DNA from: a virus
Length of the DNA: 64,000 nucleotides
Reading direction: 5' to 3' (one strand)
Virus record (IMG/VR): IMGVR_UViG_3300025652_007805
Location: 1-64,000 of that record
A model generated the notes under the pieces. It was not told where the DNA came from and searched no databases. It saw only the letters and a program-made list of their open reading frames with translations. This document shows positions 1,738 through 61,203 of the stretch, piece by piece; positions within the stretch are counted from its first letter, which is position 1; the number at the start of each line of letters is the position of its first letter. The translations under genes were made by a program, and so were the position numbers.

Positions 1738-2361
1738 TTAGTCTTTTAAAATCTTTTTAAATAAGTCTCCGATAATTTCGGTCTTATTTTCATTAATTTT
1801 CTTCTCATAAATAGAAGTGGAGATACTTTTTGGTTTATTATCGGGATAAATATAAGCATCAGGTGTTGAAGGTTCAGATACAATATCAAAACAAATTAGT
1901 TCAAAATCTTCTTGAACCATAGAAGCACCCATTTGTTCTTGGACGGAACCCATACCTCTTGACGAGATACCAAGCTTAACACCGGAGTTAACAAGGTCTT
2001 TTACAACTTTGCCTGATGGTGTGTCCAAAATTTTGATCTTTCCGATAACATCGTTACCATCCCACCAAATATCGGTAATTAAATGAGATACATTACGAAG
2101 ATTAATAACTGAATCGTCTGGGTGATCTAGTTCTCCTAATGCTCTGTTGTCTTTTACAACATTCTCATATTTTTGTATTTCTCTTCTCAAAACATTACAG
2201 GGGTAGATTCTACCATTACCATTCTTCTTCTCGCAAGTTTGAATGCGACCGGAAAGATAAAGGGCACCATCGGCAACTTCCTTTTTCTCTCTTTCGGTTA
2301 AAAGATCTTGGCAGATTCCGTCTTTACATAATTCATAAAATTCTGTTAAAAGTTTTTTCAT
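1738..2361 (-). CDS. Prohead core protease, gp21-like (assemblin-type serine protease)
   Basis: A 207-residue protein with the T4 gp21 / U9 prohead-protease signature: YLSGRIQTCEKKNGNGRIYP at about residues 35-54, GELDHPDD with the likely catalytic His near residue 80, VSHLITDIWWDG, then VKLGISSRGMGSV with the likely catalytic Ser near 133. The length matches gp21 (212 residues). It would mature the prohead by cleaving scaffold, capsid and core proteins, usually after Glu in Leu/Ile-x-Glu sites. It lies between the 2373-2651 and 1303-1725 genes, downstream of the portal, as expected in a T4-like head module. The major capsid gene normally follows and is not in the window. Its own N-terminus (MKKLLTEFYE, later LLTEREKK) may be self-cleaved. 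Confidence 0.88.
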   Translation of the reverse strand: MKKLLTEFYELCKDGICQDLLTEREKKEVADGALYLSGRIQTCEKKNGNGRIYPCNVLRREIQKYENVVKDNRALGELDHPDDSVINLRNVSHLITDIWWDGNDVIGKIKILDTPSGKVVKDLVNSGVKLGISSRGMGSVQEQMGASMVQEDFELICFDIVSEPSTPDAYIYPDNKPKSISTSIYEKKINENKTEIIGDLFKKILKD

Positions 2362-3725: not shown

Positions 3726-4549
3726 TATTCGAGCACCTCAGAAACAAAATCTTGAATATAAAATACTTCTTTTACCAATTCTTCGGTAATTGGAGTTTTC
3801 TTATAATTTTCAAGCTTCTCAAGAATTCTTTGAGTATTATTATAGAATTCTTTATTATTTTTAATTTTATCTGTCTCGGAACATTTTGAGACTTGTTCCT
3901 TGAGTCGGGCCACTTCTTCGTTCAAAAACGATTTAAGACCAAGGCCGTTATCTGAGAAAGATGTGATATAGTTTGTTAAGAGATCCTTTTGTTCTTTACG
4001 AAGGGTATTATCATAAGTTTCATTAAATTTGTTAACGAATGTCTTATACTCCAAACTATCAATATGTTTCATTTCTTGCTTTTCTTCTGTCTTTGTAGAA
4101 GCAAGCATTCCAACGACTCTTTGTTCCAAAATCAAACGAGTTTTAGCATTAGCACCCTCTGAATTGAAATACTGATACAAAGATCCGATGTTCTTATAAT
4201 TTGATATAAAGTTTGAGAAAACAGCATTAGAATAAGATTCGTTGATCTCTTTAATTAAAGCGGTCTGTTGGTTGAAGATTTCTTTCTTATCAAGATTATT
4301 GAAATCTTTTTTGACCTCAAACAAAAATCTTTGAGAAAGATTCGGAGACATTACTTCTGCTTCTAATACAGATTTGTAGATTTCCAATTCTTTTTTAAGC
4401 GGAGAACCAGCATTAAAATATTTTTTAATGGTCTCCAGCACTTTTTGTTTTTTCTCTTCTTGTCCTCGGACAATTGCTTTTGTTAATTCTGTGATTAATG
4501 ATTCGTAAAGAAAAGCGGTATTTCTTTTCTTATTGTGTCTTACTCTCAT
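3725..4549 (-). CDS. Putative prohead core / assembly protein, helical
   Basis: A 274-residue, highly charged, largely helical protein. The opening MRVRHNKKRNTAFLYESLI followed by TELTKAIVRGQEEKKQKVLE resembles a conserved but uncharacterised protein that I associate with the gene next to the portal in marine T4-like phages. Coiled-coil-like stretches occur around residues 55-110 and 205-255. No catalytic or binding motif is visible. It overlaps the portal gene by 20 bases, which suggests coupled translation. Position and composition fit a scaffold or core protein, but no biochemical function can be read from the sequence. Confidence 0.65.
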   Translation of the reverse strand: MRVRHNKKRNTAFLYESLITELTKAIVRGQEEKKQKVLETIKKYFNAGSPLKKELEIYKSVLEAEVMSPNLSQRFLFEVKKDFNNLDKKEIFNQQTALIKEINESYSNAVFSNFISNYKNIGSLYQYFNSEGANAKTRLILEQRVVGMLASTKTEEKQEMKHIDSLEYKTFVNKFNETYDNTLRKEQKDLLTNYITSFSDNGLGLKSFLNEEVARLKEQVSKCSETDKIKNNKEFYNNTQRILEKLENYKKTPITEELVKEVFYIQDFVSEVLE

Positions 4550-6461
4550 TTTCTGTGTTCTCCGATTTGTTTAAGCCTTCTAAAAGCTTCTTTATTTCTG
4601 TTGATGTTTTAAATAGTTTTTCTTCTTCTATTTTGTCCAATGATTTATTTTCTGTTATACCTCTGGCTAATGAGTCCAGCCCACCATAGCCAGTCTTACC
4701 TTTATAAATACTTCTGGTTGTGTTTCCAAACTCGCCTGTGGCTTGATTTTTCATATGTTTAGAAAAGCCGCCTTTGCGATATTTTAACTGATGTTTCTTA
4801 TATGGACCTCTGGTTTTATCGTCGTCTCGTTTACCGGGGGCAGCGAGAAGAGTACCATCGTCTTCAGCAGCAGCGGGTTCTTCGGCAGCACCTTCGTCCC
4901 CGCCAAGATCAAGTTCATCACCGCCGCCAAGATCAAGTTCATCACCGCCAGTATCATCACCGCCGAGGTCAAGGTCTCCACCGCCGCCAGTGGCTTCGGG
5001 TGCTTGTCCAGCGGCTTCAAGTCCAGCCATAAACTTTCTATCATAGAACATTTCTCTTTGCATTCTAATGAATTCGTCTTCGGAGATACCAAACATATGT
5101 TCAGCGATCCATCGCATGGAAAAGAACCCTTCAGTAGCAGCACCGGCGACATCAAATTTGGTTTTCCAATGTTCAAGTTCTTGGAGTTCAGCGATCTTTG
5201 AAGGATTATTCAAAGCAAGGTCAAATGCTAAAAGATCGTCTCCTCTGAAGCCTAAAGTAAAAAGATGAATAATTCCAATTTTTTCCAATTCTGAAATAAC
5301 AACTCTTTGTAATCTTTGAATTGTTCTGGCGAAACGAATATCCTTTTGTGCTAAAGTTGTTTTATCCTCTGAGGATCCTTCGCCCATAACAAGATATGAT
5401 TGGGGAACTTTAAGAGCAGCAAATAATTTTTCTCTTAAATACTTAACATCTTCTACGGTTCCTGTAAATTGACCACCGGGGAGGTTTTGTATTTCTGTTC
5501 CAGAAGCACCACCGCGAATAGGAATAAAGTAATCTTCTTCAATTGATAAGGGATTATAGCGAAGATCAACTCGACCAGTTTTTGGATCAACAACTTGATG
5601 TCGTTTCATTTGAGTCATAACTTTCTGCATATACTGTTCAACATCGTTTGGTGCGATATTTCCAACATCAATTTTAAACACTCGTCTTTCTGGGCTTCTT
5701 ACAATTCTATATGCCATCATAGCATCTTCAAGAAGAGTTAATTGTCTCCAGATACGACGGGCAGGCTCAAGAACCGAAGTTCCATAAGGAGAATGCTTGT
5801 CGTTACCAAGAATGCGGAAATGAGCCATTTGCCAGTTTTCAAGAGTCATACCGGCACTATTCCATTGATATTGGACATAATTTGGGTTTGTCTCATCTTC
5901 TCCCTCTAATCTTTCAATTTCTTGGGGAGGTAGACCGATTACGCTTCTGATTCCCATTTTGTCATCAATGTCCAAATATAAAAACAAATCCCCATACTTA
6001 CACATTGTACGAGACCAACCAAAGAGATTGTGGTCAATGTTTAAAACATTATGATACAAAGAGTGTAAAATAGACTTTATTTCTTCATTAGGGCACTTAA
6101 TTCTTAACATGGGTTGTAAAGAAGAATGAGTGGTCATTTCATCAGCATAAATATCAATAGCAGAAGCAATGATAGGTTCATATTCCATTTGGTCAAAATC
6201 GACATACCTCTCAGAACGACCCCTGTTGGAAATCATATTAAGAGTGGTCACATTCATTGGGTTGTATTCTGACTTCTTAAATTGTTGTCCGGAAGCAGAT
6301 TTAAACTTAGAAGAATAAATATCCAAATGTCTTCTTCTTAATTGGCGACCCGATTGTGTTCGTCTCTGTGTTAGTGGACCAGAGAGCAATCTTGTTAGTT
6401 GCTTAAATAATCCTGATTCGTCATTATATGGGTTTCTTGTATTCTTTCTTCTTGGGGCCAT
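4530..6461 (-). CDS. Portal vertex protein, gp20-like
   Basis: A 643-residue protein of the T4 gp20 portal family (T4 gp20 is 524 residues). The typical order is visible: basic N-terminus with RRRHLDIYSSKF, then YEPIIASAIDIYADE, RTMCKYGDLFLYLDID, the SPYGTSVLEPARRIWRQL helix region, MAYRIVRSPERRVFKIDVGN and YLVMGEGSSEDKTTLAQ. The portal forms the dodecameric DNA gate and nucleates head assembly. The C-terminal 130 residues are an extension: an Asp/Gly repeat region with DELDLGG units (about residues 493-545), then a basic Gly/Lys tail. The gene lies 5 bases after terL. The extension is unusual for gp20 and its role is unknown. Confidence 0.93.
   Translation of the reverse strand: MAPRRKNTRNPYNDESGLFKQLTRLLSGPLTQRRTQSGRQLRRRHLDIYSSKFKSASGQQFKKSEYNPMNVTTLNMISNRGRSERYVDFDQMEYEPIIASAIDIYADEMTTHSSLQPMLRIKCPNEEIKSILHSLYHNVLNIDHNLFGWSRTMCKYGDLFLYLDIDDKMGIRSVIGLPPQEIERLEGEDETNPNYVQYQWNSAGMTLENWQMAHFRILGNDKHSPYGTSVLEPARRIWRQLTLLEDAMMAYRIVRSPERRVFKIDVGNIAPNDVEQYMQKVMTQMKRHQVVDPKTGRVDLRYNPLSIEEDYFIPIRGGASGTEIQNLPGGQFTGTVEDVKYLREKLFAALKVPQSYLVMGEGSSEDKTTLAQKDIRFARTIQRLQRVVISELEKIGIIHLFTLGFRGDDLLAFDLALNNPSKIAELQELEHWKTKFDVAGAATEGFFSMRWIAEHMFGISEDEFIRMQREMFYDRKFMAGLEAAGQAPEATGGGGDLDLGGDDTGGDELDLGGGDELDLGGDEGAAEEPAAAEDDGTLLAAPGKRDDDKTRGPYKKHQLKYRKGGFSKHMKNQATGEFGNTTRSIYKGKTGYGGLDSLARGITENKSLDKIEEEKLFKTSTEIKKLLEGLNKSENTENESKTQ
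4901..4982 (-). repeat. Short in-gene tandem repeat encoding Asp/Gly-rich DELDLGG units
   Basis: Two identical 22-base copies lie at 4901-4922 and 4925-4946 (24-base period), and a degenerate copy follows at 4961-4982. All are inside the portal gene and encode GGDELDLGG-type units. The local base composition is GC-rich compared with the AT-rich surroundings. The repeat is in frame, so copy-number change would lengthen or shorten the acidic tail without breaking the gene. Confidence 0.8.
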
Positions 6462-6466
6462 TTTAT

Positions 6467-8050
6467 TTATCCTTTAAAAATCCAAACAAAATCACTCATT
6501 TGTTGTTTTGCTTCTAATTGTTTTTCTTTGATGTCTGATCCGTATCCATTCATTCCTTTAATTGAAGTGTTCATTGTGGTTTTGTTTAGATACATAGAAT
6601 TTAACATTGCTTTTTTATATTCTGCTTCTCTTTGATTTACTTGTAGTGCGGTATCTCTAACCCAACATGCGATAGCCAAAGACATAACCAAGTCGTCATG
6701 ATAAGATCGCATGGCTTGGGGTTTTCCATTTTTCCAAATAAAGGTTTTAAACTCATGAAAAGTTCTTGACGAATAAAGATTTATCATTTTATTTCTTATA
6801 AACTCCTCAAGTTTTGCTACAATCAAAGGACGAGTCTTTGTAGAAGTTGTGAAACCCGCTACAGCAGTGTCCATTGCTTCGCCTTGAACAGACTCCACAA
6901 ATTCATGTGTTGATTTGATTGAGTAATAAAGGTTGGGATACCCAAGAGTAATTAGTTTTTCCAAGATCGATATACCAATTCCGTTGTTTTCAACAACTAA
7001 AAGGCAATTTCCGTATTCCGTACCTGCACTGAACAACATTTGAGAGTACATATCAAGAGTTGGTTTGCCTTGGTATTCTGCTACAATTTCCATTGTTTCT
7101 AATTTTAAAACATGAAATACAGAATTATCAGCACCGTCGCCTCTAGCAACATCAGCAACAAGCATATAGGAAAACCCTTCTTCAAATTTCTCCCAAATCC
7201 AAAAGTTTCTATCATACCCTGTTCTATATACTGGTTCTCTAATTGTTTCGTTTATCCAAGCAATATCATCAGGGTGGATTACTGTGTCGCCTGATGTATT
7301 AAAGTTGCATTCTAACTCTTGTGCTATTTGTCTCCGAGACATATTTTTTGTCTCTTTGTTGAACCACTCATGGTTTCTTTCGGGGTGAACATCCCATGGA
7401 AGACAAACCGGGTGGAAATCGTTCTCTTTATTGTCGGCATCAATATAGGTTTTATGAAACCAGTTTCCAACACCGTTTGGAGTTGAAAGAGCAATGCAGC
7501 GACCACCAGTTGATAGAGTAGGATACAAACCAGTCCAGAGTTCTTTTAACCCATCAACGTGAGCAGCCTCATCAATTACCAAAAGCGAAAGAGCTTCAGA
7601 ACGACCGGCGTCGCCAGAAGTAGAAGCGGCTTTGATTTGTGATCCATTTGATAATTCAAATGATGTTCTGTTATCAATTGAAATTGTAGCCACTTGCATC
7701 CAAGGAGGCAGATTCTTCATTATAGCTTTTACTTTCTTTACCAAGTTGGCAGCAGTCGCAAATTTGGTTGCGATGACCAGAACATTTTTATCACGATGAA
7801 ACAACATAAGCCACACACAATATGCGGCTGTAATAGTTGAAATGCCCAACTGTCGGGCTTTTAGTATAACTGTAAAGCGGAAATCATTGTAGTCGTTTAA
7901 TAAATCATCTTGATACGGATAAGTTTTAAACGGAACGAGTCCTTTCAGTGGGTGTGAGATCCTACAAAAATTATTTGTAAAGTAAACTGGATCTTTCCCG
8001 CATTTAAGGATTTCTTTTACAATCTCCTTTTTTGAGAGTTTAAAAGACAT
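6467..8050 (-). CDS. terL: Terminase large subunit, gp17-like ATPase-nuclease
   Basis: A 527-residue packaging motor. The ATPase domain has the Walker A variant KARQLGIST at about residues 64-72 and Walker B LLVIDEAAH near 158. ALSTPNGVGNWFHK near 190 is the coupling motif region. The nuclease domain shows RNase H-fold acidic residues in VADVARGDGADN (about 300), VVENNGIG (about 355) and SYHDDLVMSLAIA (about 450). Length and motif order match T4 gp17, slightly shortened. It translocates DNA into the prohead through the portal and cuts concatemers. It shares one base with the 8050-8592 gene and precedes the portal gene by 5 bases. Confidence 0.95.
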   Translation of the reverse strand: MSFKLSKKEIVKEILKCGKDPVYFTNNFCRISHPLKGLVPFKTYPYQDDLLNDYNDFRFTVILKARQLGISTITAAYCVWLMLFHRDKNVLVIATKFATAANLVKKVKAIMKNLPPWMQVATISIDNRTSFELSNGSQIKAASTSGDAGRSEALSLLVIDEAAHVDGLKELWTGLYPTLSTGGRCIALSTPNGVGNWFHKTYIDADNKENDFHPVCLPWDVHPERNHEWFNKETKNMSRRQIAQELECNFNTSGDTVIHPDDIAWINETIREPVYRTGYDRNFWIWEKFEEGFSYMLVADVARGDGADNSVFHVLKLETMEIVAEYQGKPTLDMYSQMLFSAGTEYGNCLLVVENNGIGISILEKLITLGYPNLYYSIKSTHEFVESVQGEAMDTAVAGFTTSTKTRPLIVAKLEEFIRNKMINLYSSRTFHEFKTFIWKNGKPQAMRSYHDDLVMSLAIACWVRDTALQVNQREAEYKKAMLNSMYLNKTTMNTSIKGMNGYGSDIKEKQLEAKQQMSDFVWIFKG

Positions 8051-11082: not shown

Positions 11083-14000
11083 CTATTTTAAAACAACATT
11101 AGCATATCCATCAATCTTATCTATATCAATGGTCATGTCTACAACATCTTTTAGTGATTCAAGGTGAGATACGAGCAATACAATCTTAAATTGTGTCTTT
11201 ACCATCTCTAACAAACGAACAAATCCTTCCATGTGCTCGGCATCCAATGCTGTTGCTGGTTCATCAAGCACAAAAAGGTTTCCAACTGGTAAGTTAGTAA
11301 TTGAAATCATACCAAGCCGTATAGCCATAGAAGCCAATGTTTTCTCAGCACCAGAAGCCATAGAAAGAGGTCTTGGGTCATATGCTGGGTGTTTGATAAA
11401 TATATCTAACTTGGAGTCTGTATTATCAAAAAAGACCTCGAAGTCAACAATATTAGCCAGAACTTTTCCTATTTCTTCATTAATAATTGGAAGACGATCT
11501 TTAATAATGTTGTATGAGATTCCATTAGCGTGCATACATCGCATAAACATTTCATAAGCAACCCACTTGTTTTCATAGCCCTTATACTCTTCAAGTTCTT
11601 TCTCGATGTTCTTTATGATTTGGGCGGTTGATCCCTGTTCAATAAGACATTCTTGCAACTGCTCATTACATTTAGTATGTACTTGTCGCAGTTGGGATAT
11701 CTTTGTTTCAAGTGCTTTCTTTTCTCTCGTAAGTGTTCCAAGGTTCTCAATGGCTTCTCTGTTTTCTTCATATTCCGCTTCCTGATTTCTTAAACTTTCT
11801 ATTTGATTCTTTAAAAGATTCAACTTGTCTTTATTAGACGATAGTTCCATAGATTTTATTTCATTTTGATTCTGTAATTGATCAATATCTTGAGAAAACT
11901 TATTGTGTCTCTCAATATTAGAAGTAATCTCTTCTGGATTTATAAAGTTTATTTTTTCTTGTATGTCTGAGACAAACTCTTGTAATTCCTCAATCATTTT
12001 GGTTGTGGGCATTATTTTAGTTGAAGCATCGTGAGCATCTTTTACAAACTGATTGCTTACACAATACTTGCAATTAGGATCATACTGGTGTTCGTCAAGA
12101 AGTTTAACTTTTGATTTTAGATTTTCTAATATTTTTGTTTGTTGATTTAATTTTAATGTTATTATTGACTTTCGTTCTTTATGAGTTTTACAAGTTTCAT
12201 TTAGAGAAACAAGTTGTTCATAATTCAAATCGTCAAGAACCATTTTATATTGTTCTACAAACTCTTCATTATTTAATATTTCTTTTTGAAGGTCGATGTT
12301 TTCATGTAAAATTCTCTTAACACCTTCTTCTTTAGAAACAATATCGGCCTTAACTTTATCAATATCAATTATCTCCGCTGGTATTGAAGATATAATATCT
12401 TCTACTTCTTTTAATTTGCCGGTAAAAGATTCAACTGATTTTGTTGTCTTCTGACATTCTTTTTTCTTATTCTCAATTGCTTCAACTATTTCTTCTAAAA
12501 GTTCTTGGTTTTTGGTTATATCTTCAAGATAATTCTTTGCTTCAAACTTCTTAATTAAAGTTTTAATATCAGCGGAGTCCTTTTTGGCTAATTTAAACTT
12601 CTGATCGAAGATATCCAAGTCAAGGAATTTAGCAATAATCTCTTTCCTCTTCGTCGAACCTTCTTTGATAAACGACAGGGAGTCAAGCTGTGAGGCCATA
12701 GAGGTTAGTAGAAAGTCGTCAATCGTACCAAACTTCCTTCTGATATTAGCATCGGTCTCGTTGCGAGTGGTTCCGTTTAAACTCTCTTCAACTCCACCAA
12801 TTTCTTTTGTAAAATCAAGATCAACCTTTGCTTCAATTGTTTCCTTGCCTTTTAGTTTTCTTGTATACTTGTTCAAATTGCGAGCAATCTTGTATGTCGC
12901 ATTATCTGATTCTATTTCAAGAAGAATTTTGGCATCTTGTTTGTTCTGGTTGATTATGTGGACATTTTTTCTTTCATTTTTAGAAGTTGTATTATACATT
13001 CCGTATAAAACACTATCAATAATAGAAGATTTACCGGAGTAGTTCTTACCAAAAATACCCACGATACCATTAAGTCGATCAAAGTTGATAGTGTTCTTTT
13101 CGCCATAGTTAAAAAGATTGTCCCAAGTCGCACTCTTAAGTTTCCAAATAACATTTCTTGTTATCTCCTCGTTTTCTTCAACGGTTTGATTATATTTTCT
13201 GTTTAATTCCAATACCTTATCCATGATTCCATCATCGAGTTCCATATCTTTAAGGTATTTTCTAATATATTTCTCTTGTACTGTGATATCTCGGAGGTTT
13301 TCTTTCTTTAAAGCATCGGAAAGGTTTGTCTTTTCGTTACCTTTGTAGCTCGTCTTGACACTAAATGAGACACTTATTGGTCGCCACTTAACCTTGGCAA
13401 AATCCATCGCTCTTTTCATTTTAATTGGAGGTATAAGATTAGAACCAATTAAACGCAAGCGACAACCAATAGGAACATCAACTTTGGGCAATTGTCCTGT
13501 CTTAGTTAACACAACGTTAACAAACGGACGAGGGTTGTTAAGCTTATGAAATTTAACCTTAAAATCTGTTTTGTCGTTAATGTGCCACATTAAGTAGCCT
13601 TTATCAACATCCTCTCCAAAGTTCTGCTGAACAGTGGAGCCGCAATATGCTATTGTGCCTGTCTTATTAAGGAACTGCTTCTTATGTATATCTCCGAGCA
13701 TAGCATAATCAAAATTCTTGAATATATCCGAATCATGCTCTCCAAACTCCATGGTATAGCCTAAATCGGTTTGACAATTTGAGATTGCTCCATGGTATAG
13801 GGCGACATTAATCTTGCTATCATCGGTGGGCTGTGTCCAATTTTCTTCGTCAAACACTGAAAGGACATTAAATACTATCTTATCATCGAGTGAAAATTCA
13901 CCGGCATCTTTGAGAAAATGAAGATTAGGGTGCTTTAGTGCTGCGACGATTGGACCAATAGCATCTTCGCGATTAGCATTTTTAAGGTTACCATCGTGGT

Positions 14001-14250
14001 TACCTGCTATAATAATAGTGGGTGCTACATTCGCAAGGTTACTTAAAAACTCTGTTGCAAGAGAAAAATACTCTGGTGATAGTTGTGTCTTTGTGTGAGC
14101 CAAGTCGCCACAATGAACAATATAATCTGGTTGAGATTCTTTCAACTGCTTATAAAGATCAGCAAAGGCTTCACGATATTCAAAATGGTATTTTAAATTA
14201 CGGATATGAGTATCGGCTATATGAGCCAATTTAATTGTCTTGTTATTCAT
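11083..14250 (-). CDS. Mre11-Rad50 (SbcD-SbcC, gp47-gp46) single-chain fusion nuclease
   Basis: A 1055-residue protein joining two subunits that are separate in T4 and in cells. Residues 1-340 are an Mre11/SbcD metallophosphoesterase: HIADTHIR (about 9-16), VHCGDLAH, IIAGNHDGN and ALYHGAISN, later MLGDIHKK. After a linker come Rad50/SbcC parts: Walker A FGKNYSGKSS (about 399-408), long coiled coils, a zinc-hook CKYC (about 725), the ABC signature LSMASGAEKTLAS (about 960) and Walker B LFVLDEPATALD (about 990-1000). All key residues appear intact. It would process DNA ends for recombination-dependent replication and host DNA breakdown. No frameshift or internal start with a good ribosome site is visible at the junction. 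Confidence 0.93.
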   Translation of the reverse strand: MNNKTIKLAHIADTHIRNLKYHFEYREAFADLYKQLKESQPDYIVHCGDLAHTKTQLSPEYFSLATEFLSNLANVAPTIIIAGNHDGNLKNANREDAIGPIVAALKHPNLHFLKDAGEFSLDDKIVFNVLSVFDEENWTQPTDDSKINVALYHGAISNCQTDLGYTMEFGEHDSDIFKNFDYAMLGDIHKKQFLNKTGTIAYCGSTVQQNFGEDVDKGYLMWHINDKTDFKVKFHKLNNPRPFVNVVLTKTGQLPKVDVPIGCRLRLIGSNLIPPIKMKRAMDFAKVKWRPISVSFSVKTSYKGNEKTNLSDALKKENLRDITVQEKYIRKYLKDMELDDGIMDKVLELNRKYNQTVEENEEITRNVIWKLKSATWDNLFNYGEKNTINFDRLNGIVGIFGKNYSGKSSIIDSVLYGMYNTTSKNERKNVHIINQNKQDAKILLEIESDNATYKIARNLNKYTRKLKGKETIEAKVDLDFTKEIGGVEESLNGTTRNETDANIRRKFGTIDDFLLTSMASQLDSLSFIKEGSTKRKEIIAKFLDLDIFDQKFKLAKKDSADIKTLIKKFEAKNYLEDITKNQELLEEIVEAIENKKKECQKTTKSVESFTGKLKEVEDIISSIPAEIIDIDKVKADIVSKEEGVKRILHENIDLQKEILNNEEFVEQYKMVLDDLNYEQLVSLNETCKTHKERKSIITLKLNQQTKILENLKSKVKLLDEHQYDPNCKYCVSNQFVKDAHDASTKIMPTTKMIEELQEFVSDIQEKINFINPEEITSNIERHNKFSQDIDQLQNQNEIKSMELSSNKDKLNLLKNQIESLRNQEAEYEENREAIENLGTLTREKKALETKISQLRQVHTKCNEQLQECLIEQGSTAQIIKNIEKELEEYKGYENKWVAYEMFMRCMHANGISYNIIKDRLPIINEEIGKVLANIVDFEVFFDNTDSKLDIFIKHPAYDPRPLSMASGAEKTLASMAIRLGMISITNLPVGNLFVLDEPATALDAEHMEGFVRLLEMVKTQFKIVLLVSHLESLKDVVDMTIDIDKIDGYANVVLK

Positions 14251-14258
14251 TGAAGTTC

Positions 14259-15710
14259 CTATTGTTCAGGTTTCAGTTTTTTTATCAAGTCGTTTGCTGT
14301 CTTTTTATATTCCTCTATGTCCGTCCAACCTTGTTCTGGGAACATAATATTATTTGGAGCATAGTTTACCAATGGGATTGAGAATCCCGTGTATCGATGT
14401 TTAGTAAACATAACCTTAGAGAACTCGCCTGTCAAGATTAAATTAATAATTTTTCTTGTTATCTCTAGAGAAATTCTTTTTCCTTTTCCGTAACCACCAC
14501 CAGTCCAACCAGTATTAACAAGCCAGCAGTTAATATTGTGTTCTTCTATTTTGTTCTTCAGTAAGTTAGCATATGTATCAACCTTTAAAGGCATAAATGG
14601 TTGTCCGAAACAGGCTGAGAAGGTTGGGACAGGCTCTTTAACACCTTTCTCAGTTCCAGCAACTTTAGCAGTATATCCAAGTTTAAATTGCTGAACTGCT
14701 TCTTCTGTGGATAATTTCATCACTGGCGGTAGAACTCCGAAAGCATCACAAGTCAACATAACAATGTTTTTAGGGTGCTTATTAACATAGCCCATTATAT
14801 GGGAATTGGGCACCACATCCGTTGAATAAGAGGCTCTACCGTTCTCTGTGATGGACCCATCATCAAAGTCGGGCTTACCGTCTTTCATTACAACATTTTC
14901 CAATATCGTTCCTACCGACTTACAAGCATTCCAGATCTCTGGTTCTCCTGTTTCTGAAAGGCGAATGGTTTTAGCGTAACAGCCGCCTTCGATATTTGTA
15001 AGACCATTATCTGTCCAAAGGTGTTCATCATCGCCAATTAAGACTCTATTGGGGTCAGCAGATAGGGTTGTTTTACCTGTGCCTGATAATCCAAAGAAAA
15101 TAGTTGGATTTTCATTGCCCTTATCAACGTTCACAGAACAATGCATTGGTAGAAAGCCTTTACTCGGTGTTAAAAAATTGATAAGAGTAAAAGCCGCTTT
15201 CTTGATTTCACCAGCATAATAAGTTCCAGAAATAAGAATTAACTTTTCTGATACTGAAATCATTACCCTTGGTTCGTCTAAAAGTGACGGCAAGTGTAAA
15301 ATAGTATATATATCAGTGACTTCCGGCGAATCTATAACTTGTTCTTTTGTGATAAACATATTCCTAACAAACTGTGAGTGTCTCGCATATTCCGTATATA
15401 CACGGAATCCAATTGCATGCTCAGGGTCTCTTATTAGAAGAGCGTCTTGTAAGTAAACTTCTTTATCTTTGACTGTGTTTAAGAACTTTCTCTTCATTTT
15501 ATTAAAAGCACCTTTGGTCATTTTTTGATTCTCGGACCAATCTACTTTTGTTTTTGTTTGCTTCTCATTAACAATATACTTTGCTGTTGGGCAGCGACCA
15601 GTATATTCACCAGTATAAGTGACGAGTGCTCCGTCTTCCGTTAAAGAACAACCTTCTTTTTCTATGGCGATCTCTAACAGTTTCGGTGTTTCTAAATTTT
15701 TATAAATCAT
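14259..15710 (-). CDS. pckA: Phosphoenolpyruvate carboxykinase (ATP), EC 4.1.1.49
   Basis: A 483-residue ATP-type PEPCK (cellular enzymes are about 530-540), converting oxaloacetate + ATP to PEP + CO2 + ADP. Visible active-site elements: TGRCPTAKYIV with the substrate Arg near residue 39, YYAGEIKKAAF (metal and substrate Lys, about 165-175), MHCSVNV (metal His), the kinase P-loop GLSGTGKTTLS (about 206-216), GDDEHLW (metal Asp, about 223-229), NGRASYSTD (Arg near 289) and NTGWTGGGYGKGKRI. The reduction in length is spread, not a broken end. Its ATG overlaps the primase stop by 4 bases, and the Mre11-Rad50 gene follows 8 bases later, so it is expressed with replication genes. It probably diverts carbon from the TCA cycle to PEP. 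Confidence 0.95.
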   Translation of the reverse strand: MIYKNLETPKLLEIAIEKEGCSLTEDGALVTYTGEYTGRCPTAKYIVNEKQTKTKVDWSENQKMTKGAFNKMKRKFLNTVKDKEVYLQDALLIRDPEHAIGFRVYTEYARHSQFVRNMFITKEQVIDSPEVTDIYTILHLPSLLDEPRVMISVSEKLILISGTYYAGEIKKAAFTLINFLTPSKGFLPMHCSVNVDKGNENPTIFFGLSGTGKTTLSADPNRVLIGDDEHLWTDNGLTNIEGGCYAKTIRLSETGEPEIWNACKSVGTILENVVMKDGKPDFDDGSITENGRASYSTDVVPNSHIMGYVNKHPKNIVMLTCDAFGVLPPVMKLSTEEAVQQFKLGYTAKVAGTEKGVKEPVPTFSACFGQPFMPLKVDTYANLLKNKIEEHNINCWLVNTGWTGGGYGKGKRISLEITRKIINLILTGEFSKVMFTKHRYTGFSIPLVNYAPNNIMFPEQGWTDIEEYKKTANDLIKKLKPEQ

Positions 15711-16645
15711 AAATTCCTCAAAGCATTAATTAGAAAAAAATTGTCGTAATCTACCGACTTTGCTTGGTTTTTTCTCTCAATAAAAACGTCATGAGACATA
15801 GAACCAACGTCCTCACAACCAGAGGTATCTATTTCAAGCAACTCGATATCATATTGTAGCATATTTTTAACGATTTGTCCAGTCTTTTTTTTCGCGTCTT
15901 CGTCTAAAGCCAAGTAAACTGGTGTATCATTTATCGCAATTGCTTGAAATAGTTTGGTGTTTTCTCGGAGAGTTGAGCCGAGAATAGGAATAGCGTTTTC
16001 CCCAGCCACTATGGCGTCAAAAACTCCTTCTACGAGGATCACCGGACTATCCCAGTCTACAGAAAGTTGATTGAATATTATGTCCTTCTCGGCTGTTGGA
16101 TTGAGATACTTTCTCTGGTGACCAACATACGATCTCGCAATAAAATAATTAACATTTCCGTCGTTGTTAAAAGACGGTATAATTACTCTGCCGCCGAAAC
16201 GACCATCGTCACAATAACCAATCTTCCATTTCAATATTTGTTCTCTGGTTATTCCTCTCAATTGAAGATAGTTGAGAACTCTTTTGGAGGAGTAGGGCAG
16301 GTGCTTGTTACAAAGAGAGATAAATTTCTCTGGTAGTTCAATTACTTGCTCTTCTTCTACATCATTCATTTCTGCGAAGATATTCTCAAATTCGTTTAAA
16401 TCAAGACGACCTTCAAGTTCAAGCCACTTCTGTCGTTGTTGGTATGTTCCAAATTTACGAACAAGACGATAAATGTTCTTGCCGCTAGCAGAACATACCC
16501 AACATTTATAGCAACCTTTCGCAAAATTAACGGACATTTTCTTTTTGTGGTGATTACAAACTGGGCAAGAAAAAATAAACTCGTCTCTAGACTTTCTATA
16601 AGATCCAAGTATATTACAAATAATCTTCTTTTTTTGCTCAAACAT
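15707..16645 (-). CDS. DNA primase, DnaG/gp61-like
   Basis: A 312-residue primase. An N-terminal zinc ribbon has CPVC (Cys 27 and 30) and CYKCWVC (Cys 45, 48 and possibly 51). A TOPRIM catalytic fold follows: VILVEGVFDAIVAG (catalytic Glu, about 200) and VYLALDEDAKKKTG (acidic pair, about 245). It would synthesise RNA primers at the phage fork with a gp41-type helicase that is not in this window. It is close in length to T4 gp61 (342). An AGAGGTGA ribosome site lies 5 bases before the ATG. The gene is first behind the sigma-70 promoter at 16664-16691 and is coupled to PEPCK by ATGA. Confidence 0.9.
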   Translation of the reverse strand: MFEQKKKIICNILGSYRKSRDEFIFSCPVCNHHKKKMSVNFAKGCYKCWVCSASGKNIYRLVRKFGTYQQRQKWLELEGRLDLNEFENIFAEMNDVEEEQVIELPEKFISLCNKHLPYSSKRVLNYLQLRGITREQILKWKIGYCDDGRFGGRVIIPSFNNDGNVNYFIARSYVGHQRKYLNPTAEKDIIFNQLSVDWDSPVILVEGVFDAIVAGENAIPILGSTLRENTKLFQAIAINDTPVYLALDEDAKKKTGQIVKNMLQYDIELLEIDTSGCEDVGSMSHDVFIERKNQAKSVDYDNFFLINALRNL

Positions 16646-16663: not shown

Positions 16664-16691
16664 AACATAACATATTATATTATTTTGTCAA
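16664..16691 (-). promoter_or_regulatory. Sigma-70 promoter for the primase-PEPCK-Mre11/Rad50 operon
   Basis: On the coding strand TTGACA (16686-16691) is followed by 16 bases and TATGTT (16664-16669), with an extended -10 TGT. The -35 overlaps the last codons of the 16688-17302 gene. The -10 is weaker than at 9531 and 18747 (4 of 6). It precedes the primase ATG by about 18 bases and should permit expression by host RNA polymerase early in infection. Confidence 0.75.
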
Positions 16692-17302
16692 GAAGAAACG
16701 ATTATTCTCATAAAGTCATCATACATTGCTGGTAGTGGGAGGGCTTTTTCTACCTCTTCTTTATTTCCATCAGCAATAGCATTTCTTAAGTTTGTGGCTG
16801 ATATTTCATCGGCATTAACTGTAATTGGGGGTAAATCTGTCTGGGCATTGTTATAGTCTTTTGTTATCTTTGCGAACTTCTCTCCACGACCAGCATCTTT
16901 TGATGAGTGACCAAGAGCAAACACCTTGCCTTGAAATAAAGCAGGGTCGGCGTCCTTTACAAAATCAATAGCATCGGCAAATGGATTTTCATACTCTTTG
17001 CCTTTGCTTGAGATTCTTGAAGACGATCTAATCAACTCAACCTTGGGATCTTTGGTAACTCCGTAAAGATCAAATATTTTAAGAGTTTTATCAACATCAA
17101 AAGACATCGTTCCGTCGTCACTTTGTCTCGGAGCAGAACCAACAAACACAAATACCTTCTCGACATCGGGGTGTTCGGCATATTTTCTGATCATTTGAAG
17201 GTGACCTTTATGTGGAGGTTTATACCCACCGGGCAAAAGAATAATATATTTATCTTTTTCTTCGGTTAAGAATCTTCTCCAATTTTCAAACAGTCTTCTC
17301 AT
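16688..17302 (-). CDS. Nucleotidyltransferase of the cytidylyltransferase/NMNAT superfamily
   Basis: A 204-residue protein with the HIGH-type motif GGYKPPHKGHLQMI at about residues 25-38 and the second motif DEISATNLRNAI (ISxTxxR type) at about 168-179. These bind the nucleotide triphosphate in NMN adenylyltransferases and CTP:phosphotransferases. The substrate (NMN, or a phosphorylated alcohol) cannot be decided; phage NAD-salvage enzymes of this superfamily are known. The first 18 residues (MRRLFENWRRFLTEEKDK) are an added amphipathic helix before the catalytic fold, shared in style with the two upstream genes, and may target the protein into the head. A CTATTTAT box lies 21-28 bases upstream. 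Confidence 0.8.
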   Translation of the reverse strand: MRRLFENWRRFLTEEKDKYIILLPGGYKPPHKGHLQMIRKYAEHPDVEKVFVFVGSAPRQSDDGTMSFDVDKTLKIFDLYGVTKDPKVELIRSSSRISSKGKEYENPFADAIDFVKDADPALFQGKVFALGHSSKDAGRGEKFAKITKDYNNAQTDLPPITVNADEISATNLRNAIADGNKEEVEKALPLPAMYDDFMRIIVSS

Positions 17303-18193: not shown

Positions 18194-18739
18194 TTATGAA
18201 TTTAGGATTATTCCTGCTAAAGCAACAACAACAGCATCGGCTTTATCGTCTGTTCCCGGCTTGGGATTTCCATATCTCGTAAGTTCATAATTAAAATCTT
18301 CTGGATATTCATTTTTAACCCACTCTATAACTTTCTTTTTTGTGTCTTCGCCTCTTTTGATCTTGAGACCAACGGCTCCTCTTGCTTTGTTTGCGGCGAT
18401 CAACTCGGCATCAAAACCAAATTGCTTCCTTACCATAAAAGAGATCATACCATTAAATCGCTGAAGTTTGCTCATCGTCATAGCGGTTGTTTTTCCACCG
18501 GAGAACATCATAAACGGAGACTCAATGTAAACTTTAGTGATATTGAATCTGTTCTTCTTGTTGATGTAATTATATGCATTAAGAGAAGAGAGGGTGTGTT
18601 CAACGACCAAGCACCTATCTTCCAATGAGGTTTTGTTATCTAATTTTATTGTTTCAGATTTTACGAGGTTTTTGTTAGTATCAAGTATAGATAACCCTAA
18701 TTTACTTGTGCTAACATCCAAGCCTAAAATATAATTCAT
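18194..18739 (-). CDS. RuvC-like Holliday junction resolvase
   Basis: I choose the ATG at 18737-18739 (MNYILGLDVSTSKLG); the longer open frame to 18775 would run through the promoter. The 181-residue product has the RuvC-type RNase H fold: GLDVSTSKLGLSIL (first Asp near residue 7), VYIESPF (Glu near 70), and TDDKADAVVVALAG near the end with the last acidic pair. It would cut branched DNA before packaging, a job done in T4 by the unrelated gp49. The predicted transcript start is at or within a base or two of the ATG, so the mRNA may be leaderless. It heads the 18739-16688 gene group. Confidence 0.85.
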   Translation of the reverse strand: MNYILGLDVSTSKLGLSILDTNKNLVKSETIKLDNKTSLEDRCLVVEHTLSSLNAYNYINKKNRFNITKVYIESPFMMFSGGKTTAMTMSKLQRFNGMISFMVRKQFGFDAELIAANKARGAVGLKIKRGEDTKKKVIEWVKNEYPEDFNYELTRYGNPKPGTDDKADAVVVALAGIILNS

Positions 18740-18746
18740 AACATTT

Positions 18747-18775
18747 ATTATAACATTAAATTTATTAAATGTCAA
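18747..18775 (-). promoter_or_regulatory. Sigma-70 promoter for ruvC, consensus -35 and extended -10
   Basis: On the coding strand TTGACA (18770-18775), a 17-base spacer and TATAAT (18747-18752) with TGT just before it. The -35 lies within the last three codons and stop of the 18765-19916 structural gene. The start point is expected about 18740, next to the ATG at 18739. Confidence 0.9.
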
Positions 18776-52137: not shown

Positions 52138-52340
52138 TAACTATTTGTTTCCGTTGTTGTGGTGCCTGGTGACTTCATTGTTGGTGCCTTAACACTCGGT
52201 GGATTTGTAACAACAACTTGGTTAGTGTCGTCCACCTCTAATTTGAATCCTTGAAGAACAGGTACAATGTCTGTTTGTTCCATCAAAGATTTTTGAAGAG
52301 CCATCATTACGGCTCCTACTGCTTGATCACTTAGTTTCAT
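52137..52340 (-). CDS. Small hypothetical protein (MKLSDQAVGAVM type)
   Basis: A 67-residue protein. It opens MKLSDQAVGAVMMALQKSLM then EQTDIVPVLQGFKLEVDDTN, and ends in a Pro/Thr/Ser-rich tail (PSVKAPTMKSPGTTTTETNS). The N-terminal half is conserved in my recollection of marine T4-like phages next to late sigma genes, but has no known function. No Cys, membrane segment or catalytic motif. It overlaps the epimerase gene by 4 bases upstream and FmdB-like by one base downstream, so it is part of the same transcript. Confidence 0.7.
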   Translation of the reverse strand: MKLSDQAVGAVMMALQKSLMEQTDIVPVLQGFKLEVDDTNQVVVTNPPSVKAPTMKSPGTTTTETNS

Positions 52341-53158
52341 GTTTTCTCCTTTTTAAAACATTTATTTAGACCTTCGTCTATTGAAATTTTTGGTTGCCAA
52401 CCAAGGTCCTTTAGGTCACTAATATCAGCACAAGAGTGCCTGATATCTCCTATTCTTTCTGGTTGTTTTTTCCAGATTACATTATGATGATGATTTATAA
52501 ATTTCTTTATATAGTTTAAAGTAATTGGCTTTCCTGTTCCTACGTTTAAAACCTTTCCGTTGAATTTTTTATCGTTTTTCATACAAAAGATGTTTGCTGA
52601 TACAATGTCGGATAAATGTATAAAGTCCCTTGTCTGGTTACCGTCGCCATCTATTCGAAGTGGTTTATTTTGCTTTATCATTTCCATCCAAGCTGAAATT
52701 GCTGTTGAATATGCTCCTCCAAACTCCTGATTTTCAGAATAAACATTGTAATATCTCAAACATACAGTATCTAAGCCATAAAGATCAGAATATAGTTTAC
52801 ATTCCAGTTCGTTCATTAATTTATGCAACCCGTAAGGGGACTTTGGTTCTCCGTCATTTACAGCAGCAGAAGAAGAAAATATGACTCTTTTGACTTTATT
52901 TAGTACACTCCACTCTAAAAGAACCGATGTGGCTAAGACATTTTGTTTTAATGTATAAGAAGGGTTCTCAATAGAATAGGACACTTTTGGATAAGCAGAT
53001 AGGTGAAAAACATAATCATAAGATTCTCTCGGAAGGCAGTGTAAAATATCGTCACCTTCTTTCAAATCAATACCCGTTGTTTCAAAACCTTGTCTTATTA
53101 ATTCATCATAAATTTTTGAACCAATATATCCTTTGTGTCCCGTTACAAGAACTTTCAT
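52337..53158 (-). CDS. NAD-dependent sugar epimerase/dehydratase (SDR family)
   Basis: A 273-residue extended SDR enzyme. Rossmann motif VTGHKGYIGSKI (about 4-15), VFHLSAYPKVSYS (about 50-62), the catalytic Ser region IFSSSAAVN, and the YxxxK motif YGLHK (about 108-112), followed by RYYNVYS and GDGNQTRDFIHLSDIV. These match UDP-glucose 4-epimerase and dTDP-glucose dehydratase relatives. The substrate cannot be fixed from the sequence. It is the last gene of the sugar module and overlaps the SIS-HAD gene and the 67-residue gene by 4 bases each. Confidence 0.88.
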   Translation of the reverse strand: MKVLVTGHKGYIGSKIYDELIRQGFETTGIDLKEGDDILHCLPRESYDYVFHLSAYPKVSYSIENPSYTLKQNVLATSVLLEWSVLNKVKRVIFSSSAAVNDGEPKSPYGLHKLMNELECKLYSDLYGLDTVCLRYYNVYSENQEFGGAYSTAISAWMEMIKQNKPLRIDGDGNQTRDFIHLSDIVSANIFCMKNDKKFNGKVLNVGTGKPITLNYIKKFINHHHNVIWKKQPERIGDIRHSCADISDLKDLGWQPKISIDEGLNKCFKKEKT

Positions 53159-54132
53159 AGTATTTTTTTCTCACGCAATTTTTCAAAACAATTATCCCAA
53201 TTTTTAAATTCAACTGCTTTGTCATCAATATAACATACTGCTCTTGGTTTTTCTGCTGTTACTTTACTAACAAACCTAGCCATATCATGTTTTTTGAGCC
53301 AGTCCCACACTAATTCAATACCAGATTTGCCATTTACAAGTCCACGATCTGGCTTTGCTTTTGCAGTATACATAATGATTGTGTACTCTTTTGAAATCTT
53401 CTCAAGAGCTTGATATGCCCCTGGAACTGGTTCATCGTATATTGTTCCATCGTAATACCCTTTAGAGCATAAATGTATTACACCATCAAAATCAATTCCA
53501 ATATTTATTTTTTCATCTGGGTAGCTATGTTTTCTGATTTTTCCACCTTTCCAATTTAATTTTTCTAATTCTTCGGGTGAGTTTTGCCCAATAGGGGGAC
53601 AAATATTACCAGAACCATGTGTTAGTTGATATTGTAACAAAAGAGTTAAGCATTCCGCTGTGTGGTAGTATTCTACATCTAGCACAACTTGTGTTAAATT
53701 TTTAATTTCCACATCAATAGGTTTTGCCGTTATTAGACAAGCTTGCATTCCATTGTCTGTTGCCCATTGGAGTGCTTTGATTACATCTTTTGATTTACCA
53801 GAAGAAGAAATTCCATATACGAGTGATTTTTTCATTTGGGGCTTTGTTCTGGTTGATGTTCGGGACCGTAACCATGCAACCATCCATTGATCAAAGCTGG
53901 TATCATTAATTAATGAAGTTGCTACTACGCAACTACCGGGACACATTGCATTTTTTGTACCATTAGAAAGTCTCGTCATATCAACAGCGGTGTGATCGGC
54001 AACGCCCATGTTACCACCGTGCCCTAGAACATAAATATCATTACAATCATTGTATTTTGATTGTAGTGTTTTCCACTCCTCACTACACACTACTTCAACA
54101 AATTTTTCACCTATGTTTTCAAAATTTAACAT
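53155..54132 (-). CDS. SIS-domain sugar isomerase (GmhA-like) fused to HAD phosphatase
   Basis: A 325-residue two-domain protein. Residues 1-190 are a SIS fold like sedoheptulose-7-phosphate isomerase GmhA: LGHGGNMGVADHTAVD (about 35-50), YGISSSGKSKDVIKAL (about 108-123) and TAECLTLLLQ. Residues 208-325 are HAD-type: IGIDFDGVIH (nucleophile Asp near 216), MYTAKAKPD, KPRAVCYIDDKA. In heptose synthesis GmhA is followed by phosphatase GmhB, so the fusion could do two steps of a heptose pathway. The join (NWKGGKIRKH) resembles an old start site. Substrates are inferred. Confidence 0.78.
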   Translation of the reverse strand: MLNFENIGEKFVEVVCSEEWKTLQSKYNDCNDIYVLGHGGNMGVADHTAVDMTRLSNGTKNAMCPGSCVVATSLINDTSFDQWMVAWLRSRTSTRTKPQMKKSLVYGISSSGKSKDVIKALQWATDNGMQACLITAKPIDVEIKNLTQVVLDVEYYHTAECLTLLLQYQLTHGSGNICPPIGQNSPEELEKLNWKGGKIRKHSYPDEKINIGIDFDGVIHLCSKGYYDGTIYDEPVPGAYQALEKISKEYTIIMYTAKAKPDRGLVNGKSGIELVWDWLKKHDMARFVSKVTAEKPRAVCYIDDKAVEFKNWDNCFEKLREKKIL

Positions 54133-54805
54133 CTTTTAGAATCTCCTTATTATATTCTATTACAGCAATAGTATCCATGCCTAAACATTTTAGTCCATAA
54201 TTTTTATATTTATGGATCTCTTTATTAATATTTTTTGGTATGTGAACAGCCATCTTATCTTTGTTTAAAATTTTATTCACCTTATCAATATAACACAAAA
54301 ATTCTTCATCGTCAAACTGTCCTGGCTTATTTAAACTCAATGAAAGGTCATATGGTCCGATTAAATAATAGTCAAAATTAAACTTTATTATTTCTTTCAA
54401 ATTATCAACCGCTTTTTTACTCTCAATTTGAGGAATAATTATTGGGTCTGATTGAATCAGGTTCTTTTCTCCCCATAAGTTTTGGCGAACGAGGCCCAAG
54501 CCTCTTTTACCTTTTGGGGAATAGTAGCAATATTCTATTATTTTTTCACACTGTTTTTTAGTTTCTACTGTTGACAAAATTAACCCATCCACAGCAGCAT
54601 CTAAACAATATCGAATCATAGTTTTTGAAATTTCAGTTAAACGAACAAAACACTTTTTTTGGGATGCTTTTATAACTTGAATACAAGAGAATAATGTTTC
54701 ATTATCATAACATCCGTGTTCTGTGTCTAAGACAACTCCATCAAAATTGTGACACATTATTTCAGAAATTAATGGAGAGGGTATTTGCTGCCAGGACAAA
54801 ATCAT
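54119..54805 (-). CDS. HpcH/HpaI-family aldolase (2-keto-3-deoxy acid aldolase type)
   Basis: A 228-residue class II aldolase fold. Diagnostic segments: FDGVVLDTEHGCYDNETL (catalytic His), FVRLTE with substrate Arg, CLDAAVDGLILSTVET, SPKGKRGLG, IIIPQIESKKAVDNL (metal Glu) and YYLIGPYDLSLSL (metal Asp). All family ligands appear present. Family members cleave or form 2-keto-3-deoxy acids from pyruvate and an aldehyde, and versions are common in surface polysaccharide clusters. It overlaps the SIS-HAD gene by 14 bases and the GDPD-like gene by 4. Product identity is unknown. Confidence 0.85.
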   Translation of the reverse strand: MILSWQQIPSPLISEIMCHNFDGVVLDTEHGCYDNETLFSCIQVIKASQKKCFVRLTEISKTMIRYCLDAAVDGLILSTVETKKQCEKIIEYCYYSPKGKRGLGLVRQNLWGEKNLIQSDPIIIPQIESKKAVDNLKEIIKFNFDYYLIGPYDLSLSLNKPGQFDDEEFLCYIDKVNKILNKDKMAVHIPKNINKEIHKYKNYGLKCLGMDTIAVIEYNKEILKDVKF

Positions 54806-55260
54806 TTGTTTTCCTCATATAGAGATATAAAGTCTGAGCATATCCCATAACAATTTAATATTTCTTCTTTTTTGTATTTTGCATTTTCGGGCATTACAGC
54901 TATGGAATTGTCGCTAAGAACAGACCCAGGGTATGCCCATATTATATTATTACTAGTAAGAGTGTAATCGTCATTTTGATGCCAAAAGAATCTATATTTG
55001 TCTTGCATATGTTTTGAAAAAAAATTTAAACAATTAAGATTTTTTGCATGTATCCATAAACTATTTTTTCTATTCATAATCCATTCTATATTTACTTTAT
55101 GTTGAGCAGTATCGTGTCCAAGAAAAAAACAATTGTCAATTATTCTAATATCTGTTTCTACATCGTATCCCATAGAAATAGCACTATCAATATAGATAGG
55201 GTCGTTTTCTAAAGCAATATTTTTACCACTTATATTTCCTCTATGAGAAATGAAAATCAT
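54802..55260 (-). CDS. Glycerophosphodiester phosphodiesterase-like protein
   Basis: I choose the ATG at 55258-55260 (MIFISHRGNISGKN), which overlaps the upstream stop as ATGA; the longer frame adds nine residues (MPLCVCYKV) encoded within the methyltransferase gene. The 152-residue product has the GDPD/PI-PLC start: SHRGN, LENDPIYIDSAISMGYDVET and GHDTAQ, with the metal and catalytic His and acidic residues in the usual order. It is much shorter than typical GDPDs (about 250), so the C-terminal half of the barrel seems trimmed. It may act on a phosphodiester-linked sugar or lipid; activity is uncertain. Confidence 0.65.
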   Translation of the reverse strand: MIFISHRGNISGKNIALENDPIYIDSAISMGYDVETDIRIIDNCFFLGHDTAQHKVNIEWIMNRKNSLWIHAKNLNCLNFFSKHMQDKYRFFWHQNDDYTLTSNNIIWAYPGSVLSDNSIAVMPENAKYKKEEILNCYGICSDFISLYEENK

Positions 55261-55964
55261 GACTTTATAACATACGCAGAGGGGCAAATATAATTCAAAG
55301 ATTTTACTTGAACATTTTTATTTTTAAAAAACTTATCAACACCTTCAGATTCCGACCATTTATGAAAAGCATATTCGTCAAACACAACTATCCCACCACT
55401 CACAACTCTATCCCACATATTTTTTAAAGTTTCATAAGTTGGCTCCCCTAGGTCTAAATCAATATACAATAGAGAAATTCTAAACCCTGGTCTTTCGGAA
55501 ACAAATTGCTTGGTCGTCTCAATAACATCCCCCGCCACTAAATCAAATTCATGTTCCATAAATCCCATATTTTTGATATTTTCAGAAAAGTATTTTACGC
55601 AATTACTACTATGTTCGAAATTCCTATCTTTAAATAATGTACTCATTGCCTCTTTATCGATACCACTGAGAGATTCAATCAATTTTTTAGAATTATAAAA
55701 GTCAAAACCAATTACTTTTTTAAGTGTATTCGGGCACAAATATTTTTTTAATTTAAGGAAAGTTAGAAGACCAGTTCCCTTAAATACACCGCATTCAACT
55801 ATGTCTCCAGGTAAATCCTTAACTTGATTAAAAAGAAGCGTCCTAGCTAAAAGTTTTCCAAATATTTTTGTATCTGAACTTAATATAAATCCGTTGAAAT
55901 TATCATAAAGTTTTTGATCTATATCTATAATTTCTAAATCTTTTAAATTCATTTTATTTGCCAT
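55257..55964 (-). CDS. TylF/macrocin-O-methyltransferase-like SAM enzyme
   Basis: A 235-residue methyltransferase. The SAM-binding motif DLPGDIVECGVFKGTGLL lies at about 51-68, followed by VIGFDFYN. The metal-binding acidic cluster typical of TylF appears in LLYIDLDLGEPTYETLKN and GGIVVFDEYAFHKWSES. TylF-type enzymes O-methylate sugars or polyketide sugar moieties. Within this gene cluster a sugar O-methyltransferase is the likely role. It overlaps the upstream HAD-nucleotidyltransferase gene by 11 bases. A later in-frame ATG at 55952 is an alternative start. Confidence 0.8.
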   Translation of the reverse strand: MANKMNLKDLEIIDIDQKLYDNFNGFILSSDTKIFGKLLARTLLFNQVKDLPGDIVECGVFKGTGLLTFLKLKKYLCPNTLKKVIGFDFYNSKKLIESLSGIDKEAMSTLFKDRNFEHSSNCVKYFSENIKNMGFMEHEFDLVAGDVIETTKQFVSERPGFRISLLYIDLDLGEPTYETLKNMWDRVVSGGIVVFDEYAFHKWSESEGVDKFFKNKNVQVKSLNYICPSAYVIKS

Positions 55965-61194: not shown

Positions 61195-61203
61195 TTTTAA
61201 TCC

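Follow-up and report, generated by a model that had tools for sequence, protein, structure and literature searches.

A shortened ATP-type phosphoenolpyruvate carboxykinase gene in a T4-like phage belongs to a virus-only branch among sampled sequences and probably serves gluconeogenesis

The DNA analysed here, called the window, comprises 64,000 nucleotides (positions 1 to 64,000) of IMG/VR record IMGVR_UViG_3300025652_007805, which is incomplete and 75,096 bases long. On its minus strand, an open reading frame running from an ATG start codon at 15710 to 14259 encodes an ATP-type phosphoenolpyruvate carboxykinase (PEPCK) of 483 aa. The gene is encoded inside the phage genome with phage genes on either side. 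Upstream, a T4-type DNA primase gene (15707..16645, minus strand; phrog_47, E 1.7e-41) shares its stop codon with the PEPCK start in an ATGA overlap (15707..15710, minus strand) preceded by GAGGA. Downstream, a gene for a fused SbcD/SbcC-like (gp47/gp46) nuclease (11083..14250, minus strand; phrog_77, E 1.7e-51; phrog_100, E 5.5e-34) starts 8 nt past PEPCK with its own AGGA. The same 4-base overlap of primase and PEPCK was found in the loci L001, L002 and L122, and together with the GAGGA sequence it likely confers translational coupling. A RuvC-like resolvase (18194..18775, minus strand; phrog_159, E 7.5e-15) belongs to the same replication/recombination block. Because PEPCK sits in a slot of this operon, it would most likely be translated along with the replication proteins primase and gp47/46. 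The T4-type portal protein gp20 (4530..6461, minus strand; PF07230, E 8.3e-79), the large terminase subunit of T4 type (6467..8050, minus strand; PF03237, E 2.3e-8) and a head maturation protease (1738..2361, minus strand; phrog_207, E 3.7e-62) are all encoded within 14 kb of PEPCK. The phage origin of the gene, as claimed in the preliminary description, is thus borne out by the primase overlap, the flanking gp47/46 gene and the nearby portal and terminase genes. The nearest isolated phages, which infect Flavobacterium and Microcystis, share only ~42-43% portal identity with the window, and for this reason no host was called.

Other genes of the record were noted in passing. A cytidylyltransferase-like protein is encoded directly upstream of the primase (16688-17302). 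At 52337-63998 lies a surface-polysaccharide-like module with two NAD-dependent epimerases, a SIS-domain protein, an HpcH/HpaI aldolase, a HAD-nucleotidyltransferase fusion, a class III aminotransferase, a CMP-sugar synthetase-like/cupin fusion and a GT29 (sialyltransferase-like) protein, and further sugar and glycosyltransferase-like genes follow in the record beyond 63998 (L123). This sugar-nucleotide module prompted the idea that PEP feeds a phage NeuB sialic-acid-like pathway, which we discarded since the window record contains no NeuB.

The ATP-type identity of the enzyme, also proposed earlier, was confirmed by profile, structure-database and fold comparisons. A profile search against PF01293 (PEPCK_ATP) gave 570 bits (E 4.3e-171; cut-off 26.5), and the match spans residues 2-446 of 483 and profile positions 3-456 of 465. 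The best match in the PDB is the Thermus thermophilus enzyme 1j3b (E 1e-115), and the Escherichia coli ATP-PEPCK 1aq2 was also matched (E 7e-98). An AlphaFold2 model, for which only window and locus sequences served as input, reached a mean pLDDT of 91.5 and a pTM of 0.90, with a confident active-site region. In Foldseek comparisons, the model superimposed with Thermus PckA over the whole length (TM 0.90-0.92) and with ATP-PEPCKs at TM 0.85-0.94 (E 1e-47 or better), whereas GTP-PEPCKs reached only TM 0.75-0.78 at 13-15% identity. The predicted fold is therefore of the ATP type rather than the GTP type. The protein fell below the cut-offs of the NCBIfam equivalog TIGR00224 (pckA; 494 versus 590 bits needed) and of NF006820 (599 versus 636), and the subfamily model NF006821 was the only NCBIfam model that it passed (403.5 versus 369). 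Such low scores are to be expected for a divergent subfamily, and judging from these profiles the enzyme belongs in PF01293 but outside the narrower TIGR00224 equivalog.

When aligned with E. coli Pck (NC_000913), the window enzyme showed a complete set of the catalytic residues. Arg39 (codon 15594..15596; all codons here on the minus strand) corresponds to E. coli R65, which binds the substrate carboxylate. The YAGEIKK motif (Tyr165-Lys171; 15198..15218) contains the equivalents of Y207, K212 and K213, and His190 (15141..15143) that of the metal ligand H232. The P-loop GLSGTGKTT (residues 207-215; 15066..15092) includes K213 and T214 for K254 and T255, and the GDDEH metal site (residues 226-230; 15021..15035) includes D228 for D269. 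Arg292 (14835..14837) and Arg412 (14475..14477) match R333 and R449. In full, E. coli R65, Y207, K212, K213, H232, S250 and K254 are kept as R39, Y165, K170, K171, H190, S209 and K213, and T255, D268, D269, E270, H271, R333 and R449 as T214, D227, D228, E229, H230, R292 and R412. All motifs named in the preliminary description are present and none of the catalytic residues checked is lost; R333, R449 and Y207, which it had not named, are kept as well. The catalytic residues are also invariant in the other viral copies of the clade described below, wherever the sequence covers them.

The enzyme is nevertheless short. Cellular PEPCKs have a median length of 537 aa (range 512-610; n=80, among the matches listed), compared with 483 aa in the window, so the earlier estimate of about 50 missing residues was right. 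The alignment to E. coli located the loss at three sites: the N-terminus is shorter by ~14 residues, a loop of 9 residues at E. coli 182-190 is missing, and the C-terminal tail lacks E. coli 529-539. The missing loop and the shortened ends are common to the virus clade, whose members measure 472-503 aa (median 486-488); the deletion columns are occupied in >80% of cellular PEPCKs and in <10% of the virus clade. This clade-wide loss could be taken to mean that the protein is dead or moonlighting, for example by assembling with host PEPCK as its decoy or inhibitor, or by playing a binding role. We regard this as improbable, since all near-full copies keep the complete catalytic set, which a decoy would not need, the predicted fold is confident over the active site, and the dN/dS ratio is low. 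The NG86 estimates were 0.083 between the window and L001 and 0.12 between the window and L002, values that are approximate because dS is near saturation. PEPCK is under purifying selection in these related phages.

The gene order primase-PEPCK-gp47/46 recurs in L001, with a PEPCK 79% identical to that of the window, and in L002 (64%), and in L004 and L122 (63-64%) two small ORFs lie between PEPCK and gp47/46. By eye, of these two extra ORFs (L122 5419-6183) one looks Smr-like and the other GIY-YIG-endonuclease-like; the latter could mobilise the slot in the L004 phage. The L004 gene seems to be broken only because its scaffold has 10 N in a row there, and we dismissed the notion of a pseudogene. 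Another IMG/VR record (L003), which may not be an independent sample, is identical to the window over 21,449 bp. The codon usage of PEPCK resembles that of other window genes (RSCU r 0.90; controls 0.74-0.91). These observations bear on the suspicion that bacterial DNA had been joined to a phage contig. Some records filed as phage do carry a host pckA, as seen in Staphylococcus phage UPMK_1 and in Salmonella and Escherichia fragments. The ATGA overlap with the primase, the same gene order in contigs whose PEPCKs are 64-79% identical, the identical stretch in a second record and the phage-like codon usage argue against such a chimera here, as do the virus-only branch (see below) and the want of any cellular PEPCK that exceeds 48% identity over its full length among the matches listed. 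We therefore rejected host contamination, whose probability we consider negligible; the preliminary description had named evidence of a chimera as what would overturn it, and none was found.

A scan that started from the primase yielded 80 phage loci, among which the primase often stands directly before gp47/46 (for example in L127, L162, L165 and L167-L171), while other loci mostly have ORFs of unknown identity in between. The window lineage alone has PEPCK at this place, and 0 of 30 records from T4-like relatives lacking it in the slot contain it anywhere in their available sequence. As the slot is empty or differently filled in relatives and none of the 30 has the gene, PEPCK is cargo carried at a variable position within the replication/recombination operon. 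In T4-like phages this gap is a cargo hotspot (L131 6941-8852, L150 6937-8904, L128 6993-8353 and others), and nearly all ORFs of the alternative cargo were without known identity in Pfam. Elsewhere, neighbours of PEPCK include an MgtC family protein (L011 8879-9544), S-adenosylhomocysteine hydrolase (L021 11358-12689), UvdE and DnaJ (L017 9066-12505) and a cysteine-synthase-like PALP protein (L018 12179-13045); IMP dehydrogenase lies near PEPCK in eight loci.

Apart from the window record, scans of IMG/VR identified 33 contigs that carry genes of the PF01293 type. Thirty of them form, together with the window, one PEPCK branch of 31 viral records, which received a support of 100/98 and was present in 100% of 200 bootstrap trees (61 rows). 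Its SH-aLRT support was 99 in a tree of 106 rows and 98 with later members added. The trees are unrooted, and no sampled cellular PEPCK falls inside the branch. The preliminary description had proposed a tree to see whether the gene nests in one bacterial clade; such nesting was not seen. With no inferred root and an incomplete cellular sample (the best 80 genome loci listed, 398 Pseudomonadota genomes, of which 243 had a PEPCK match, and hardly any Bacteroidota), virus-only means virus-only among the sampled sequences. A T4-type portal and terminase were found in 12 in-clade PEPCK records, including 8/8 tested contigs >120 kb, and the portal family was absent from 14/14 cellular control genomes. 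Within the branch, identity to the window is 44-79%, and the most distant members are in raw identity no closer to the window than the best cellular PEPCKs; their placement follows from the tree and the shared deletion, not from raw identity. The nearest cellular copy among the matches listed lies on a Melainabacteria contig (L027), which we considered as a hidden phage and set aside because NADH dehydrogenase, malate dehydrogenase and SOD genes are present. Viral PEPCKs on the cellular side, outside the branch, occur in L007 (a 636-kb phage), L022, L024 and L025, and by sequence look like separate acquisitions.

Many phage metabolic genes are host-derived, and with Bacteroidota hardly included in an incomplete cellular sample, one might suppose that the window PEPCK was lately acquired from the present host. 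Such a recent pick-up is very improbable, because the best cellular identity to the window, 47-48% among the best 80 genome loci listed and the 243 Pseudomonadota genomes, is lower than that of most phage copies, and because the viral copies share a deletion and a single branch. The portal data strongly rejected the PEPCK topology (p-AU 2e-15), whereas the PEPCK data did not reject the portal topology (p-AU 0.13). Since this rejection is one-sided, the discordance between the two trees suggests, short of demonstrating, phage-to-phage transfer of PEPCK.

Two in-clade PEPCK phages, G003 (267 kb, L017) and G004 (202 kb, L018), additionally carry an aceB-aceA operon, in which the adjacent genes for malate synthase and isocitrate lyase overlap at their ends and the KKCGH motif is kept. 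These operons lie at L283 4193-6941 and at L284 8351-11111 (minus strand) in sequence from the PEPCK phages. A third PEPCK phage, G006, has a transaldolase; neither aceBA nor transaldolase was found in the incomplete 75-kb window record. AceBA would convert acetyl-CoA into C4 acids and transaldolase would turn sugar phosphates into pentoses, so that a PEPCK working towards gluconeogenesis fits in between. The co-occurrence suggests, though not significantly, a flux from acetyl-CoA to PEP: 2/22 PEPCK records and 1/30 T4-like relatives without PEPCK had aceBA or isocitrate lyase (Fisher p 0.57). No PEPCK was seen on 10 other aceA-bearing viral contigs, most of which are fragments; their isocitrate lyases are 77-85% identical.

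The direction of the reaction deserves attention because ATP-PEPCK is reversible. In some succinate-producing bacteria (Actinobacillus, Anaerobiospirillum) the enzyme runs in the carboxylating direction, and the same active phage enzyme might do so as well, turning PEP, CO2 and ADP into oxaloacetate and ATP, with a gain of ATP and a refilled TCA cycle. The PEPCKs of succinate producers (1ygg and 1ytm) align with that of the window over nearly the full length, and the active site gives no sign of direction. Yet the Thermus enzyme is the higher-scoring match to the window protein when compared with theirs, and the two clade phages with the glyoxylate shunt already make C4 acids by it, which would render extra oxaloacetate from PEP redundant in G003 and G004. 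Carboxylation is the main rival to the gluconeogenic reading, and we judge it unlikely.

Taking into account the gene and its fold, the active-site residues, the phage context, synteny, purifying selection, the virus-only branch and the co-occurrence with aceBA in two relatives, we favour, with a probability of roughly three in four, the reading that the window PEPCK is a true metabolic gene of the phage, kept by selection, and belongs to a shortened subfamily peculiar to viruses and present in diverse T4-like phages, and that its product probably converts oxaloacetate to PEP for gluconeogenesis. From these sequences we infer that the enzyme is catalytically active and decarboxylating, and would benefit the phage when made at the time of its replication proteins. 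It would probably convert oxaloacetate of the host and ATP into PEP, CO2 and ADP, drawing carbon from the TCA cycle into gluconeogenesis at the expense of ATP, and the PEP may then lead to pentose phosphates for nucleotides and also to sugar or aromatic precursors. The presumed host would use organic acids or amino acids for its growth. A wider proposal is more tentative, and we hold it to be somewhat doubtful though possible: phages may own a long-standing PEPCK lineage, not derived from present hosts, which passes as cargo between T4-like phages and in some genomes is paired with a phage-encoded glyoxylate shunt, thereby supplying the committed steps from host acetyl-CoA (from fatty acids or acetate) to PEP for nucleotides.

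Most of the well-known phage genes for carbon metabolism act in cyanobacteria, on photosynthesis and on the pentose phosphate pathway. If the reading proposed here is true, T4-like phages would have a gluconeogenic gatekeeper peculiar to viruses, which would show that phages draw on the TCA cycle as well. The shortened PEPCK clade is a specific, testable protein family, its loop deletion may serve as a marker by which environmental surveys can tell genuinely viral PEPCKs from contaminating host genes, and the pairing with aceBA in two phages offers a concrete flux hypothesis open to laboratory test.

The preliminary description had placed PEPCK outside the usual phage auxiliary metabolic genes, a statement that has to be amended, because viral PEPCKs have already been listed (PMC12448302, PMC9894754, PMC9270025). 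In trench sediments, pckA has been counted as a putative viral metabolic gene (PMC12448302), and PEPCK is listed in ANME-1 viruses (PMC9894754); PEPCK also occurs in giant viruses (Mimiviridae; PMC9270025), and BFVD contains it in Catovirus and Klosneuvirus. Phage lambda affects the cellular gene in another way, its CI protein repressing host pckA (PMC6359870). No family in PHROGs v4 matches the window PEPCK, and among 50,697 phage records PEPCK matches occurred only in one uncultured huge phage and in host-DNA-like records. One such record, that of UPMK_1 (MG543995, L006), has host-like PEPCK, menaquinone and peptidase genes, so that a publicly deposited phage entry probably contains host DNA. 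In the openly searchable literature, a scope that leaves out most subscription papers and preprints, we found no description of a virus-specific PEPCK clade, of its deletion signature or of its pairing with aceBA.

Compared with these systems, the trench and ANME-1 PEPCKs bear the same enzyme annotation in virus contigs, but in what is accessible of both sources they stand as survey listings, with nothing said on their phylogeny, active-site residues or place in the genome, nor on a clade peculiar to viruses. The giant-virus enzymes likewise have an ATP-PEPCK fold in a virus, but they come from eukaryotic viruses with at most 36% identity to the window and were left out of the tree. The marine phage TARA_ERS478052_N000008 (PMC5332604) is large and T4-like and, as G003 and G004 do, carries the glyoxylate shunt as an aceBA operon; PEPCK goes unmentioned in the main text of that paper, whereas in G003 and G004 aceBA and PEPCK share one contig. 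The unannotated record of the uncultured huge phage LR756504 (636 kb; L007 7959-9530) encodes a full-length ATP-PEPCK among phage genes, with a portal present, but this enzyme has the cellular length of 524 aa and groups with cellular PEPCKs, and would thus have been acquired separately from the window clade. With cellular PckA (EC 4.1.1.49; Thermus 1j3b/1xkv and E. coli 1aq2), the window enzyme shares the whole-length fold, the catalytic Arg/Lys/His/Asp set, the P-loop and GDDEH; it differs in its identity of 36-48%, in being ~50 residues shorter through the loss of a loop and both ends, and in its place in a phage operon.
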